Source: Mycobacterium lentiflavum (lineage in GTDB: Bacteria; Actinomycetota; Actinomycetes; Mycobacteriales; Mycobacteriaceae). From it: 64,000 nt of DNA. The position numbers and the translations under genes were made by a program. The stretch is from NCBI RefSeq assembly GCF_022374895.2, contig NZ_CP092423.2:124001-188000 (forward strand), in the 5' to 3' direction. Of the stretch, positions 1,676 through 46,342 are shown in pieces; positions within the stretch are counted from its first letter, which is position 1, and every line of letters starts with the position of its first letter. The notes under the pieces are model-generated. The model searched no databases. It was not told where the DNA came from and saw nothing but the letters and a program-made list of their open reading frames with translations.

Positions 1676-1850
1676 CTTGCTATCAACTCGGACTGGAACG
1701 TTGCGGCGTCTGCCGAGACATCCGAAAAGGCCTGTCCCGCTGCCGCTTCTGTTTTGTCCGGGCATTCCGGCCGGGGCGCGCCTGACTGTCGCAGGTGCGG
1801 GCGGACCGTGTGCCCCAGGCTGAATCTGAACCGGATGACAAGATGCCCGG

Positions 1851-2705
1851 ATGAGCTACCGCTGGCCGACGCTGGCCGATGTCATCGACACCCTCCACGT
1901 TGTCCGCGTTGACGACCACCACTTCGTCGCTACGCAATTGGACAACCCGGGCCATCACATTGTGGGCGGCCACATCGCCGGCCAGGCGCTGATGGCGGCG
2001 AGCCTCACTGCGCCGGGCCGCGCAGCGCACAGTGTGCATGTCTATTACGTGCGAGCCGGCGATGCGCGCAACCCGGTCGACCTGCACGTCGACGTGGCAC
2101 GCGACGGCGGCACCCTGTCCACCCGCAAGATCACAGCGCGCCAGGACGGACAGATCCTGCTCGAAGCGCTCGCGTCCTTCAACGTGCCGTTCGAGTCGCT
2201 CGACTACCAGCAGCCGATGCCCGACGTTGCCGACCCCGAATCGCTGGCCCCGATCCAGCAGCAGTTGGCGGCACATGCGGACGAGCTGGACGGTCACTGG
2301 GTCGCACCTCGGCCTTTCGAGCTGCGCTACGTCGACCCCCCGCCGCGCCTCGCTATCGACCTGGCCGAGTCGACACCGAGGCTGCGAATGTGGTGGCGCG
2401 CCAACGGATCTGTGCCGGACGATGAGGTGCTGCACAGCTGCCTGCTGACCTACCTTTCCGGCACCACAATGGTCGAGCCCGCGCTCGTCATGCGGCGGGC
2501 CACGCCGGTCAGCACTTTCAACGCCCTCATCGACCACGCACTGTGGTTTCATCGGCCGGTCGACCTGGCGGACTGGGTCCTCTCGGATCAGGTGTCGGCC
2601 AGCGGTGTCGCGGGCCGGGGGCTGACGACGTCGACGATGTACAACCGCGAGGGGCAAATGGTCTGCGTCGCAACCCAAGAGCTCTACTTTGGCCGAGGCT
2701 CCTGA
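1851..2705 (+). CDS. tesB: Acyl-CoA thioesterase II-like protein (TesB family)
   Basis: This encodes a 284-residue double-hotdog protein of the TesB/acyl-CoA thioesterase II family, which hydrolyses acyl-CoA to free fatty acid and CoA in the cytosol. The first hotdog holds the typical segment GGHIAGQALMAA...VHVYYVRAGD (about residues 38-75). The second holds DDEVLHSCLLTYLSGTTM and the late SFNALIDHALWFHRPVDLADWVL...GRGLTTSTMYNREGQMV motif containing the conserved Asp/Thr/Gln region. The length matches the family (about 285). It is a single gene between the vapBC promoter and the convergent metallo-hydrolase. The physiological substrate is unknown. Confidence 0.9.
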   Translation: MSYRWPTLADVIDTLHVVRVDDHHFVATQLDNPGHHIVGGHIAGQALMAASLTAPGRAAHSVHVYYVRAGDARNPVDLHVDVARDGGTLSTRKITARQDGQILLEALASFNVPFESLDYQQPMPDVADPESLAPIQQQLAAHADELDGHWVAPRPFELRYVDPPPRLAIDLAESTPRLRMWWRANGSVPDDEVLHSCLLTYLSGTTMVEPALVMRRATPVSTFNALIDHALWFHRPVDLADWVLSDQVSASGVAGRGLTTSTMYNREGQMVCVATQELYFGRGS

Positions 2706-2717
2706 ACACCCCGGCCG

Positions 2718-4001
2718 TTACGGCGTGCCCAGCAGATCGATACGGTGTCTGGGCACGTCACCCTGCAGCGGCACGACCCTGGCCGCCATGTCGGGATACT
2801 TTTCGAAGAATGCCACGAGACCCTGCTCGGCAGGCGACCAATCTGGCAGAGGATTGCGGGTTCGGCTCGACCGTTGCCGCTTGATCTCCCAGTCCGCCTG
2901 ACGGAGCCCATCGATGTCGGCGATCTCGTAGGTCAGGTAGATCTTGTAGTCCTCCTCCGGCCGGACGGCGTTGCGGGCCTGGCGCAGCATGTCCAGAGTT
3001 GCCCGCTCGGGGTTTCCGTGCTGTCCGTTCCCGGAGAACACGTAGCGGTCAGCCGTTATGCGCTCGAAATAGTCTGGTGTGTAATTGTTTTCACTACCGT
3101 GGTGCTGTCCCTTCAGCACATCGACGTGCAAACTATCGCCCAGTCCGACGAGCTGCATTCCCTCGAGGATCTTGTCGCCGCGGGCATCGCCAGTGAACAG
3201 GATCGTCTTCCCGCCGAATTCGGCGAGCACCACAATGCTGGACAGATTGGCCACCGACTTGTCGACATAGGCCGCCAGTGCGGCAGTCGGCGGCTTCGGA
3301 TGCTTTTTCTGTTCCTCCAACCACTTTCGGTGTGCCTCTTGTAACGCCTCGACTTCTGGCAGCATGGGGCCGATGACGTTCAACGTCAGACCGTCTCCGA
3401 TGTTGATCGCCTTGCCGCCATCTTTGGCGACGATCAACCCGCCCTCTCCATCGTTTACCTGGATCTGCAGCACCTCGGCGTTGCCGGCCAGGTCGATGCC
3501 CTGCTCGATGCCTGCGAGCACCATCAGCGCGTCGTTGAAGGTGTCGGGGTCGACCTTCGCGTCGTCGGGCACCAGGTCGACCGGGATGTCCCCGGTCAGC
3601 GATGCCGTTCCGTACCCGTTCGAGGTGGCCTTCTTCAGCTCTGCCGCGTCGTTGCCGATGATCTTGTCAAATGTGTTGTGGAACAACCTTCGTGGCTTGA
3701 CGAACCTGTTGACCGGCAGCGCCCTGAGCTCCTCCGTCAGCCGCACCAGGCCGTTGGCGTGGTCATCGTCCACGTGGCTGAGCATCACCCAGTCGAGCAC
3801 CATCGGCTCGCCGGCGGGTACGCCCTTATCGTCCCGCAGCTGCTTGAGCCGCGGTTCGAGGTGGTTGGTGTAGACGCCGCTGGGACCCCCGTCGATCAAC
3901 GCCAGCTTCTGCTTCTTGTTGGCCTTCGACCCGTATCGAAGCAGTAGGCAGTCGCCTTTCTTGGCGGGCAGGATTTCGAGACTGAAAACGGTGCTGGGCA
4001 T
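2718..4001 (-). CDS. ComEC-type metallo-beta-lactamase-fold hydrolase, third gene of the patatin/protease operon
   Basis: This encodes a 427-residue MBL-fold protein. The N-terminal strand FSLEILPAKKGDCLLLRYG is typical of ComEC/Rec2-type MBL domains. The metal motif is HVDDDHANG (His76, Asp78, Asp80, His81), followed by FTGDAR and LKGQHHGSENN, the later metal-binding Asp and His. No signal peptide or membrane helix is visible, so unlike ComEC this is a stand-alone cytosolic hydrolase, probably acting on a nucleic acid, nucleotide or other phosphoester. A 70-residue insert sits between the first motifs (LFHNTFDKIIG...). It lies 11 bp downstream of the protease gene on the same strand, with a probable RBS (GAGGTGA) before ATG 4001. 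Stand-alone enzymes of this fold occur in bacterial conflict systems; a role here is inferred from context. Confidence 0.9.
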   Translation of the reverse strand: MPSTVFSLEILPAKKGDCLLLRYGSKANKKQKLALIDGGPSGVYTNHLEPRLKQLRDDKGVPAGEPMVLDWVMLSHVDDDHANGLVRLTEELRALPVNRFVKPRRLFHNTFDKIIGNDAAELKKATSNGYGTASLTGDIPVDLVPDDAKVDPDTFNDALMVLAGIEQGIDLAGNAEVLQIQVNDGEGGLIVAKDGGKAINIGDGLTLNVIGPMLPEVEALQEAHRKWLEEQKKHPKPPTAALAAYVDKSVANLSSIVVLAEFGGKTILFTGDARGDKILEGMQLVGLGDSLHVDVLKGQHHGSENNYTPDYFERITADRYVFSGNGQHGNPERATLDMLRQARNAVRPEEDYKIYLTYEIADIDGLRQADWEIKRQRSSRTRNPLPDWSPAEQGLVAFFEKYPDMAARVVPLQGDVPRHRIDLLGTP

Positions 4002-4012
4002 CTGAATTCACC

Positions 4013-5944
4013 TCATTGACTCTGTAATGCACGAAGGACATCGAGTAAGCCGTGACCCTGAAAGTTGCGCTCGCGTCCGAGATCGGTCGCTGTCTCGCAG
4101 AGAATCCTCTTGATCTTGTCGGGACGTCCGACGAGTTCTGGATAGCGCGCCATCAGTAGCGCCGCGGCGCCGCTGACGTGGGGAGCGGCCATGCTGGTGC
4201 CGTCCAGATAGCCCCAATCATTTTCCAGCACTGGGGAATAGATGCGCTCGCCGGGAGCGACGAGGTCGGGCTTCGGTCGTCCGTCACCGGTGGGGCCACG
4301 GCTGGAGAAGTAGCTCACGCCGTAGGTGAAAGGTTTGTAGTGGTGGGTGGATCCGACCGTGATGACGCGCTCCGCATTGCCAGGGTCGGTGATGCTGAAG
4401 GCGAGGTAGTTATTGAAGGGCTGGTCGTTGACCATGATGTTCTGGTAGCCGAAGTTCCCTGCCGCCGCGACGACGACCACCCCGCTGTCGATGAGTCGTT
4501 CGGCCTCCATGCAGACCGGGGTCGCTCCGCATGCGTAATTGCGCACGTCGTGCTCGATCGACAGGCTCATGTTCACACCCTGGATCTGCATGCCGCCCGC
4601 CAACTCATTGGTGTGCCGGACAAACTGCAACGCCGCGATGACCGCCAACTCGGTGTCCTCTTTATCCGATCCGATGATGCGCAAGTCGTACAGACCGATA
4701 CCCGGGCACATGCCGGTGACGAGGTTTCCGCCCGCTTCGTCGACTCCGGCCGCGATGATGCCGGCGACATGAGTGCCGTGTTCGCTGGCCGGTGGTGGCG
4801 GGGGCGCGCCGTCGACGCCGAGTTCGAGGAACTCCGCGATGAGGTCATACCGCATCGGCTGACCGTGGTATGCGGCGGTCGCGATCTGTTTCAGCTTGCG
4901 GTCTGCGTTCGACGGGAGTGGGTTGTCTTTGCGAGCGGTCTCGATCGCCTTGAGATTGGATTTGCGAACGACGTCGTCGACATTGCTGAGGTTGACGACC
5001 TCGCGGTAATAGGTGAAGTCGTACGTCTTGTGGACCGGATGCTTCCCAAACGCGATGTGATGCGTATCGATACCGGAATCGACCACCGCCCAGGTGATCG
5101 GGGTGCAGTCGAGTTCGAACAGCCGCCGGGCCGCGTCGGCCTTCACGGTCGGCACCGACTTCATGATCGCGGTGGACGCCGGACGGTTTCGCGAGATCTG
5201 CCACACCTTCGCAGCTTTTGCCGGGGACATATCGGTGGAGATCAGATCGACCACGAGCTCGCGCAAGTCGTCGTTGCTGGTGTCGACCAACAGGCCCTGC
5301 GTTTTCTTCTGAACTTTGGCCAGCACTGGTGGCGTCAGCGGCTCGCGGTCCGTCTCCTCCGGAGGCAGCTGCACCATCAAGACCAGGGCGCACAACGCGA
5401 CGAAGCGCTCGAATGCCGTGCGCCGACTGCGGATCCCGACCGTGGGATCCTTGAAAAATTCGTCGAGGTGCTGGGGACCCTTGTTCCAGGCGTCGACCAG
5501 GAGCCGCACATCGTCGACCGTCTGAGCGATCTTGTCGGGTCCGTGTTCGCCGGCTGACTTATCCGAACTCATCCACGCGTCGATTTCGTTGCGGGTCTTC
5601 GGATCCAGCCACCACTTCGTCATCGGGATCAGCACCCGGATCACTTCGTCGAAGTACAGTCGGGCGGCTACATAATTCTGGACCGGCGCGACCCTCGGAT
5701 CGTCGTGGTGAGCGACGCCGCGGCGAATTCCTTGCAGCTGTTTGAAGATCTCGGCGGCCAGGGCATTGGCCGAACTGCCCTTGTACGATGTGATGAGCAA
5801 GTCGACCGGCTTGCTCAGATCTTGCACGTAGGCGGTCCACACATCCCCCAAGATCGGTGAGCCCTGCAGGTGTCGTCTACTCGAGCCTGCGCCAATCAGG
5901 ATGTAATCGACCAACTTTCGGGAGATTGAAGTTTCCCCGTTCAT
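4013..5944 (-). CDS. Cytosolic subtilisin-like (S8) serine protease with a long N-terminal domain
   Basis: This encodes a 643-residue protein with a complete S8 catalytic triad: Asp289 (AVVDSGIDTHH), His389 (EHGTHVAGIIAAG) and Ser584 (DGTSMAAPHVSGAAALL), plus the oxyanion Asn497 (AAAGNFG). The protease domain occupies about residues 280-640. About 280 residues precede it without signal peptide or membrane segment; they are largely helical, with MTKWWLDPKTRNEIDAW and a hydrophobic stretch FVALCALVLMVQL, and I recognise no domain in them. Mycosins, the usual mycobacterial S8 proteases, are exported and membrane-anchored; this one is not. It overlaps the patatin gene by 4 bp (ATGA) and is followed by the MBL gene. 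The N-terminal region could be a sensor or inhibitor; that is speculation. Confidence 0.95.
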   Translation of the reverse strand: MNGETSISRKLVDYILIGAGSSRRHLQGSPILGDVWTAYVQDLSKPVDLLITSYKGSSANALAAEIFKQLQGIRRGVAHHDDPRVAPVQNYVAARLYFDEVIRVLIPMTKWWLDPKTRNEIDAWMSSDKSAGEHGPDKIAQTVDDVRLLVDAWNKGPQHLDEFFKDPTVGIRSRRTAFERFVALCALVLMVQLPPEETDREPLTPPVLAKVQKKTQGLLVDTSNDDLRELVVDLISTDMSPAKAAKVWQISRNRPASTAIMKSVPTVKADAARRLFELDCTPITWAVVDSGIDTHHIAFGKHPVHKTYDFTYYREVVNLSNVDDVVRKSNLKAIETARKDNPLPSNADRKLKQIATAAYHGQPMRYDLIAEFLELGVDGAPPPPPASEHGTHVAGIIAAGVDEAGGNLVTGMCPGIGLYDLRIIGSDKEDTELAVIAALQFVRHTNELAGGMQIQGVNMSLSIEHDVRNYACGATPVCMEAERLIDSGVVVVAAAGNFGYQNIMVNDQPFNNYLAFSITDPGNAERVITVGSTHHYKPFTYGVSYFSSRGPTGDGRPKPDLVAPGERIYSPVLENDWGYLDGTSMAAPHVSGAAALLMARYPELVGRPDKIKRILCETATDLGRERNFQGHGLLDVLRALQSQ

Positions 5945-7104
5945 GTCAACGCCTCACTCGGATAGGGCAATTCGGTCTTCTCGAGATCGGTGAGTTCACC
6001 GGACATGTGGGTCCGCAGGCCGGCATCGCAGATGACGTAGCCCCAGTTGATCAGTCGCTCCTGGTCGGCGTCCGACATCGGAGCGAGCCGGGTCTTCACC
6101 TCGGCGAGTTCGCGGGTGCGATCGGGGTTGGCCGGCAGCACTGCGCCGCCGTATTTCGCGACCTGACTGCGGATGCCGATGTACATGCCCTGTCGCAGGC
6201 CGGATTTGAACGAGCCGATCACCTGGCGCTTGCGCATCGCCAGGGCTTGATTGTGGATGAGGTCGAGTACCCGAGAAGTCTGCCGCAGCGGATCGGTCGG
6301 GGGATCGTCGTCGGCGGCGACTTCGCCGCCGGCGTCACTGACGATGATTGACGTGTATCTCTTCCACGCGGTTTCCAGCCCGAGGTTGTCGTATACGCCG
6401 CCGTCGGTCACCTTGATCTCGTCGCGGAAGCCGGGCCCGGTAAGCGTGTTGCCTTGTTCGTCGATCCAGGTCTGGCCCTTGAGGTGCAGCGTGCAGGGCG
6501 ACAGCACGGGCGGAAAGGCCGACGACGCGGCGACCGCGACCGCCAGCGCTATGTCGGGATTCACGATCCGCCCGACGCGATAGTCGGCGAGATAGGGCTT
6601 GCTGAACCGCAGCAGCACCCCGGACTCCAGGTTGGTCGAATTGAAGATGAACCGTGGCGTGTCGGGTAGTTGTTGCAGGCTGGTGTCACCGAAGAGGTGC
6701 TTGCGATAGGCTGCCGCGACGCGGCCGGCGGCGGAATCGCCGAAAGGCAACATTCCTTCGAGAACCGCTTTGACGTCGACCGCGGTTTCGCTCATCTTTC
6801 GCACGGGTTTGACGATCTGTTCGTCGAAGTTGCTGGCGACTCGCCGGGTGTCCCATGTCAGCTGCGTCCAGTTCTTCGCCAGAACGCCGGCGGTGATCGA
6901 ACCGCCCGAGACGCTCGAGATGCGGTCGAGCTTCGCCAGTAGGCTAACCTCGTTGAGCCGCCAGAGCACGCCGACGTGGAAGACCATCGCCCGGTAGCCG
7001 CCGCCCGATAGGCAAAGCGCCAGACCCTTCTCCGGTTGCCGACCTCCGTCGTCCTGGGCTTGCCGGACCGGAGTGATCAACTCGTCCAACCTGGCACTGG
7101 TCAT
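5941..7104 (-). CDS. Patatin-like phospholipase, first gene of the operon
   Basis: This encodes a 387-residue patatin-domain protein, a Ser-Asp dyad lipid acyl hydrolase. The oxyanion loop is SGGGYRAM (Gly34-Arg38). The nucleophile motif reads SVSGG (Ser66), a variant in which the first Gly of GxSxG is Ser. The catalytic Asp is in TDGGVYDNLG (Asp234). There is no signal sequence, so it would act on the inner membrane from the cytosol. A C-terminal region of about 130 residues follows the patatin core. The start is backed by GGCAGGAG upstream. Patatin effectors such as CapV kill infected cells in CBASS, but no cGAS-like synthase is nearby; here it is coupled to a protease and an MBL hydrolase instead. 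Confidence 0.93.
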   Translation of the reverse strand: MTSARLDELITPVRQAQDDGGRQPEKGLALCLSGGGYRAMVFHVGVLWRLNEVSLLAKLDRISSVSGGSITAGVLAKNWTQLTWDTRRVASNFDEQIVKPVRKMSETAVDVKAVLEGMLPFGDSAAGRVAAAYRKHLFGDTSLQQLPDTPRFIFNSTNLESGVLLRFSKPYLADYRVGRIVNPDIALAVAVAASSAFPPVLSPCTLHLKGQTWIDEQGNTLTGPGFRDEIKVTDGGVYDNLGLETAWKRYTSIIVSDAGGEVAADDDPPTDPLRQTSRVLDLIHNQALAMRKRQVIGSFKSGLRQGMYIGIRSQVAKYGGAVLPANPDRTRELAEVKTRLAPMSDADQERLINWGYVICDAGLRTHMSGELTDLEKTELPYPSEALT

Positions 7105-7410
7105 TTTGGCTCCTGCCCGCGTACGACCTGCGACCTAAGGCGGAACACGCATTCCGCAGTGGCCCGAATGCCCGAGGTCAGTGACGCATTTGGTGCTGTT
7201 TGTCGGGGCAGTGATGACGCTATTGCCGATGATCGGGCGTGCGCATGCGTAGTCGACTACTCGTCGTAGGCGCGTTGTAGGGACGCGCCGAACCAAGCGA
7301 CGGATCGAGACGAGCGCATGAGCCTGCTGTTGGTTACCAGACAAGCGTGCTCACGCCACCGACTGGCCCCCGGGACTCGCCCGCAATGTCTTGCACGCTA
7401 ATTTTCCAGG
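7105..7410. other. Divergent intergenic region between the patatin operon and the GH6 gene
   Basis: No convincing gene is seen in this 306-bp stretch. It should hold the promoters of both flanking transcripts. A perfect 12-bp palindrome, GTAGTCGACTAC, lies at 7249-7260. On the plus strand TAATTT at 7399-7404 fits a -10 box 6 nt before the GTG at 7411. On the minus strand only the ribosome-binding site of the patatin gene (about 7115-7122) is clear. Confidence 0.45.
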
Positions 7411-46246: not shown

Positions 46247-46342
46247 GGAGGCGTTTGGGTTCCTGGTGGTCCCCCCGGTCTTCAAAACCGGTGAGATCGA
46301 GTATCTCGGTCTGGCGGGTTCGATTCCCGTCCGCCTCCGCCA
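46247..46342 (+). tRNA. selC: tRNA-Sec (anticodon UCA)
   Basis: The 96-nt tRNA includes an encoded CCA. The acceptor pairs GGAGGCG with CGCCTCC. The anticodon stem CCGGT/ACCGG (46275-46279, 46287-46291) carries the loop CTTCAAA with anticodon TCA at 46282-46284, which reads UGA. A long variable arm (GAGAT/ATCTC, 46293-46307) and a T arm (GCGGG-TTCGATT-CCCGT, 46314-46330) follow. The acceptor plus T stems total about 13 bp, as expected for bacterial tRNA-Sec. It lies 30 bp upstream of selA and is required to decode the fdh UGA. Confidence 0.95.

Follow-up and report, generated by a model that had tools for sequence, protein, structure and literature searches.

A likely abortive-infection operon of Mycobacterium lentiflavum combining a subtilase, a predicted gated nuclease and a patatin-type lipase

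The operon and its three products

The stretch of DNA analyzed here, hereafter the window, comprises 64,000 nucleotides of the Mycobacterium lentiflavum contig NZ_CP092423.2 (positions 124,001-188,000). Near its beginning three consecutive open reading frames (ORFs) on the minus strand code for a patatin-like phospholipase (5941-7104, 387 amino acids), an S8 family subtilase without an export signal (4013-5944, 643 amino acids) and a ComEC-type enzyme of the metallo-beta-lactamase (MBL) fold (2718-4001, 427 amino acids). The ATGA at 5944-5941 is common to the patatin stop and the subtilase start, and the MBL gene starts 11 bp past the end of the subtilase gene; the trio is one operon, just as the initial annotation had described it. 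The claim of that annotation that all three enzymes have intact catalytic residues is likewise borne out, as the patatin possesses the GGGYRA motif at 34, Ser66 and the DGG motif with Asp234, the subtilase D289, H389, N497 and S584, and the MBL an HVDDDH motif (76-81), D272 and H300/H301. The subtilase residues are retained in 37/37 aligned relatives and the MBL residues in 66/66 aligned MBLs. A simple hydropathy scan recovered no transmembrane-like segment in any of the three proteins (largest 19-residue Kyte-Doolittle mean 1.34-1.64), in keeping with the earlier statement that none has an export signal.

The patatin is recovered by the Pfam Patatin profile at 8.8e-19 and has no sequence relative among PDB sequences; it is likely to be a membrane-attacking effector. 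The subtilase matches Pfam Peptidase_S8 at 1.9e-40 and, among the PADLOC models, 'subtilase' at 6e-43 and IetS at 8.3e-11, and it is predicted to be the activating protease of the system. Its catalytic region is preceded by an N-terminal domain (residues 1-280, 5105-5944) that is conserved over 37 relatives and typified by a QDSPILGDVW-type motif. In the structural model, which has a mean pLDDT (predicted local distance difference test) of 70.6 with a poorly modeled catalytic region and was used for the N-terminal domain only as far as its helices, this domain is mostly helical at moderate confidence; the 50 Foldseek matches listed for the model are all subtilisin-type proteases. The profile score of the N-terminal domain separates the MBL-linked subtilases from other subtilases, and the domain is presumably a sensor or regulator.

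The MBL narrowly fails the family cut-off of Pfam Lactamase_B (1.9e-4), and matches the PADLOC models for LmuA (1.5e-41), Avs1a (7e-27) and RTasMBL (1.5e-22). The NCBIfam Avs1a model is matched at 3.1e-38, although the 131.5 bits fall well short of its curated cut-off of 420, and BLAST against an annotated Avs1a gave 3.9e-20 in a small sequence set; the alignment to Avs1a runs end to end. Its structural model matches the fold of the ComEC nuclease domain, tied with phosphorylcholine esterase, which raises the alternative that the MBL acts as a Pce/CbpE-like esterase on phospholipid head groups and works with the patatin on membrane lipids rather than on DNA. This is improbable, because at the level of sequence profiles ComEC (4.3e-9) is favored over CbpE (1.8e-3), the enzyme is far closer to the Avs1a and LmuA models, whose MBL enzymes are reported as DNases (PMC12799240), and the subtilase-MBL pair also occurs without a lipase. 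The ComEC of the same genome was tried as an outgroup for the MBL and set aside, as no match exceeded the cut-off of the family and the region that was translated (L188) appeared RNase-J-like by eye.

In AVAST and Hachiman systems the related enzymes have been termed 'gated pro-nucleases', in which two insertions relative to ComEC block the active site and are cut there by a protease (PMC12799240). Two low-confidence insertions in the window's MBL occupy the regions expected from this precedent. Insertion 1 (residues 111-160, 3522-3671; pLDDT of 77, 65, 52, 59 and 69 in successive 10-residue blocks) coincides with an Avs1a insertion in the alignment, and insertion 2 (residues 214-250, 3252-3362), of low confidence over 231-250 (blocks of 76 and 61), falls in the region of the second Avs1a insertion; both are candidate gating loops. 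Beside insertion 1 lies a VLAG motif (residues 161-164, 3510-3521), which adjoins an Ile-Ser-Ala of Avs1a in the alignment, and insertion 2 contains an ALAAY motif (residues 241-245, 3267-3281). Leu-Ala is present at 162-163 in 50/66 MBLs, at 242-243 in 49/66 and at both sites in 45/66, and VLAG and ALAAY are accordingly put forward as candidate sites of cleavage by the subtilase. The MBL is predicted to be a gated pro-nuclease.

A conserved protease-MBL pair with changeable partners

A scan of 84,980 species genomes gave at least 80 subtilase loci, in which the family was delimited by an N-terminal domain score of at least 60, the next highest score being 51. Among the matches listed, an MBL gene lies directly downstream of the subtilase in 24 of the 25 loci scoring at least 60 and in all three additional mycobacterial loci (27/28 in total). 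The lone exception is L055. In L033 a contig end truncates the MBL, and the decayed fragment L116, which has no MBL, was left out of the count. An adjacent MBL was found at none of 71 control loci of other subtilases, 66 of which offered at least 1.2 kb of room for it. The gap between the two genes measures 11-13 bp in 13/30 loci and 6-16 bp in 17/30, and over 30 loci the pairwise distances of subtilase and MBL correlate with r 0.81 (permutation p 0.0001), a value inflated by shared ancestry. Subtilase and MBL thus form the conserved core of the system; the two genes stand apart only in L055 and the fragment L116, so that the separate occurrence named by the initial annotation as grounds for abandoning its reading is not what is seen. 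In one locus (L051:9989-12583) subtilase and MBL sequence are found in one shortened open frame, perhaps by a deletion or an assembly join, and in L059, L061 and L063-L067 members of a different subtilase family are followed after only ~11-27 bp by a gene of ~1.3-1.4 kb.

The third gene is far more variable across the 35 pair-bearing loci (the window, L033-L054, L056, L057, L113-L115, L143-L148 and L155, with the near-duplicates L036/L037 and L045/L046 each counted separately). A lipase-type partner occurs at 20/35 among the matches listed, namely a patatin at 14/35, a Tle1-like hydrolase at 5/35 and an LCAT-like lipase at 1/35. One operon with the order patatin-S8-MBL is on the Sinorhizobium meliloti plasmid NZ_CP021816.1. 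The patatin lies downstream rather than upstream in two Streptomyces and is separated by one intervening gene in L146, and the Tle1-like genes of L033 and L048 (two of the five) are on the opposite strand, that of L033 seemingly missing its catalytic serine by eye. Other partners are an FRG-domain protein (2/35) and, at one locus each (1/35), a metallophosphoesterase, a Septu PtuB, a Pycsar-type cyclase-E2-TIR set 289 bp away and a Vps62-like protein under the Pfam cut-off; nine loci (9/35: L035, L045, L046, L047, L049-L053) have no assigned partner, their neighbors having been scanned in part and some contigs ending there. The lipase is thus a frequent and swappable partner outside the fixed core, and the three genes do not make up a constant trio. 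A conserved fourth gene downstream was considered and dropped, as it is an MFS (major facilitator superfamily) transporter in Bradyrhizobium and the similar-sized gene of L143 is unrelated.

These observations bear on the substrate of the protease. Under the scheme raised by the initial annotation, the subtilase would trim the patatin to switch it on, with the MBL serving as a brake or signal-degrading enzyme. It could draw on the overlap of the patatin and subtilase genes, on the way patatin distances track those of the subtilase (r 0.87 over 13 loci) and on the recurrence of lipase-type partners at 20/35 loci; but the constant partner is the MBL (27/28), partner proteases reportedly cleave related MBLs (PMC12799240), and each of the unrelated lipase families would need a cut site of its own. 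We consider it unlikely, and the MBL is the best-supported substrate. The presence of Tle1-like partners, for which the Pfam name refers to type VI secretion systems (T6SS), and the fact that both Tle1 and patatin are also found as T6SS lipase effectors, could instead suggest a secreted or contact-dependent toxin set in place of an internal phage defense. However, the three window proteins lack export-like segments and no secretion-system gene is annotated in six pair-bearing plasmid stretches (the chromosomal neighbors were not systematically annotated), making a toxin set highly improbable.

A search of plasmids with the patatin gave 43 records, and 13 loci were read with their annotation, ten of them obtained via the patatin and the other three (L144, L146, L152) via their MBL. 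In L159, L161, L162, L167 and L168 a patatin, divergent in L168, stands beside an unannotated protein of 629-719 amino acids and an MBL, while in L160 a relative of this protein and an MBL lie ~3.6 kb from the patatin. The protein displays an HETTH motif with EAFAD or EAIAD (HEFTH alone in the L160 relative), a signature of the kind found in thermolysin-like zinc proteases. It has no clear Pfam match, and the L160 relative gives a weak, sub-threshold match to M4. This combination of an HExxH protease, an MBL and a patatin of the window's family occurs on plasmids of rhizobia and also in a mycobacterium (G176), which has in the same order a patatin 62% identical to that of the window, an HEVTH protein belonging to the same protease family and an MBL. 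On one further plasmid (L152) the patatin is divergent to a Canu-like set of caspase, hypothetical protein and MBL. We tentatively suggest that the lipase arm and a masked nuclease arm form a module whose protease slot accepts enzymes of unrelated mechanism (a serine subtilase, an HExxH metalloprotease or, on that one plasmid, a caspase), the fitted protease setting what is sensed and releasing both killers. Counting against such an exchange, the patatins of L163, L164 and L166 have no MBL annotated within ~6 kb.

Several other arrangements were seen in these searches. A Rhizobium plasmid (L147:1781-9203) has an HExxH protease and MBL followed by an FRG-pYEATS gene, a subtilase and another MBL. 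In L165:2517-7143 an MBL, an E1/JAB-like fusion (by eye) and a patatin stand in a row beside DUF1788/DUF1819 genes, which we take to be those of BREX (bacteriophage exclusion) loci. The mycobacterium G156 (L158:5332-10232) has a patatin, an 833-amino-acid protein and an MBL 36% identical to the Canu-like MBL of L152; a caspase-like reading of the 833-residue protein was by eye only, neither the CHAT Pfam model nor PDB sequences gave a match, and it was not counted.

Patchy distribution and a defense setting

Among 198 genomes sampled from the genus (cut-offs of 1e-30 for the subtilase, 1e-25 for the MBL and 1e-60 for the patatin) some subtilase occurs in 34, but the full-length form with the N-terminal domain is found in only four (G000, G164, G043, G013), and a further 29 match its catalytic part alone at 40-55% identity. 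The MBL is present in exactly the same 4/198 genomes, and the patatin in three of these four as well as in G176, G036 and G156. Across 346 genomes of the phylum (1e-110 for the subtilase, 1e-20 for the MBL) both core genes occur in the same two (G000 and G294). Because so few genomes carry these genes, the trio is a rare, patchy accessory system and not the housekeeping operon of all mycobacteria that would have spoken against the initial annotation. A decayed remnant of the full-length subtilase family without an MBL match is seen in another mycobacterium, G144 (L116:8522-9580). The MBL had no match among phage records, and its 38 pattern matches in IMG/VR included no relatives.

In a sister species (G164) window positions 1830-7265 are matched contiguously by blastn at 85% DNA identity, a block that comprises the trio and an acyl-CoA thioesterase gene (1851-2705) on the opposite strand, and which likely travels as accessory DNA. 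The GH6 gene adjacent in the window is present in 33/61 relatives, and in all four close relatives inspected its surroundings lack the trio; an attempt to map a clean insertion from empty sites recovered only the shared block 1830-7265. As to the vapBC pair that had been noted nearby, the PIN gene is supported by Pfam (1.2e-11), whereas the presumed antitoxin has no Pfam match. The PIN gene is the sole defense-type neighbor noted in the chromosomal window. Farther away in the window ARAGORN predicts a selenocysteine tRNA gene (46247-46342).

The defense setting emerges from the wider family. The neighbors of 24 family loci (L055 included; L036, L037, L046 and L113 omitted as near-duplicates or for size) were compared with those of 24 other-subtilase loci, each set containing 122 proteins, with the lipase partners counted among the former. 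At 1e-15 the family neighbors matched 59 PADLOC families and the control neighbors one, a tally of families and not of proteins, as one protein can match many; the association with defense genes that the initial annotation had set as a check is thereby recovered. Of ten proteins inspected one by one, nine belonging to the 122, three had no match, and the others were one Septu PtuB, three Thoeris ThsB, two AbiE and one AAA protein. On plasmids the subtilase pair adjoins a Pycsar-type set (L143) and a SIR2-family gene (L147), and a more distant S8-MBL pair adjoins a Shedu gene (L149). The metalloprotease version adjoins cyclase genes of CBASS (cyclic-oligonucleotide-based antiphage signaling system) in L159 and L162, and DUF1837-helicase genes, presumably Hachiman, in L161 and L162. 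That these are ordinary accessory genes of lipid and protein turnover kept together by chance might be argued from the co-travelling thioesterase, but the strict pairing across phyla against 0/71 control subtilases, the plasmid carriage and the defense neighbors render it very improbable. Thus, the patchy spread, strict pairing, excess of defense neighbors over the control, plasmid carriage and kinship with Avs1a and LmuA together support a defense system. The conflict-system reading of the initial annotation is upheld in this respect, though its mechanism needs revision.

Proposed mechanism and relationship to known systems

We propose, with a probability of roughly 0.55, that the operon is an abortive-infection system made up of a subtilase-gated ComEC-like nuclease and a patatin-type lipase. 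A phage signal would be sensed, perhaps via the N-terminal domain of the subtilase, which would then cut the MBL beside both insertions, at the candidate VLAG (161-164) and ALAAY (241-245) sites. The two loops would mask the MBL active site until cut, and the freed enzyme would degrade DNA, while the patatin-type phospholipase would probably attack the membrane in parallel as a second killing arm. If this is correct, proteolytic activation of a masked nuclease would extend past trypsins and caspases to subtilisins and metalloproteases and be coupled to lipases, such cascades could exchange their protease for one of an unrelated catalytic class and still retain both killing enzymes, and a defense operon of mycobacteria and rhizobia would gain a name.

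With the PADLOC copy used, the subtilase and the MBL are picked up solely through models built for different systems, and the patatin (0.045) is barely recognized. CapV is the patatin effector of CBASS, and a patatin phospholipase in a defense setting is likewise present here; however, that 0.045 is the match to the PADLOC phospholipase effector, and the three-gene operon lacks a CD-NTase cyclase, as had been noted earlier. IetAS, which combines an ATPase with an S8 protease, provides an anti-phage S8 peptidase, to which the subtilase is a weak match (8.3e-11) within the catalytic domain, but the operon has no partner ATPase IetA and an MBL instead. The trio's MBL matches the MBL-type LmuA profile of Lamassu at 1.5e-41, but the operon lacks an SMC-like LmuB gene (the flanking ORFs were scanned only in part). 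Peptidases, some with an S8 domain, are coupled to NucA-like endonucleases in previously proposed conflict systems (PMC7159879). These share the link of S8 peptidase to nuclease, but involve a NucA-type endonuclease and trypsin paralogues rather than an MBL; the main text of that article contains none of the terms metallo-beta-lactamase, MBL, patatin, lipase and DUF2235.

The closest parallels are AVAST type 1 (Avs1a/Avs1b) and Hachiman HamMAB, in which a ComEC-like MBL with two insertions is likewise encoded next to a protease gene (PMC12799240). Their protease is of the trypsin type, occurs as a domain of a STAND fusion protein (Avs1b) or of one with HamA, and is encoded downstream, whereas here a free-standing S8 subtilase lies upstream, a lipase gene is added and the operon has no STAND or helicase gene. 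Canu (CanABC, caspase-activated nuclease) likewise encodes a free-standing protease ahead of its MBL gene, but this protease is a caspase and not a serine subtilase (Peptidase_S8), with CanB in place of the lipase (PMC12799240). A subtilase is not named in the main text of PMC12799240, and the trio was not found in the literature searched, though it could still be described in a preprint, in a subscription paper or in the supplement of that article. Since the defining part of each is missing, the operon falls outside AVAST type 1, Canu, Lamassu, CBASS and IetAS. Nevertheless, with an MBL homologous to the Avs1a/HamM/LmuA-type nucleases and a protease gene accompanying that of the MBL at 27 of 28 intact loci, it looks to be built like the protease-gated MBL nuclease pairs of these systems.
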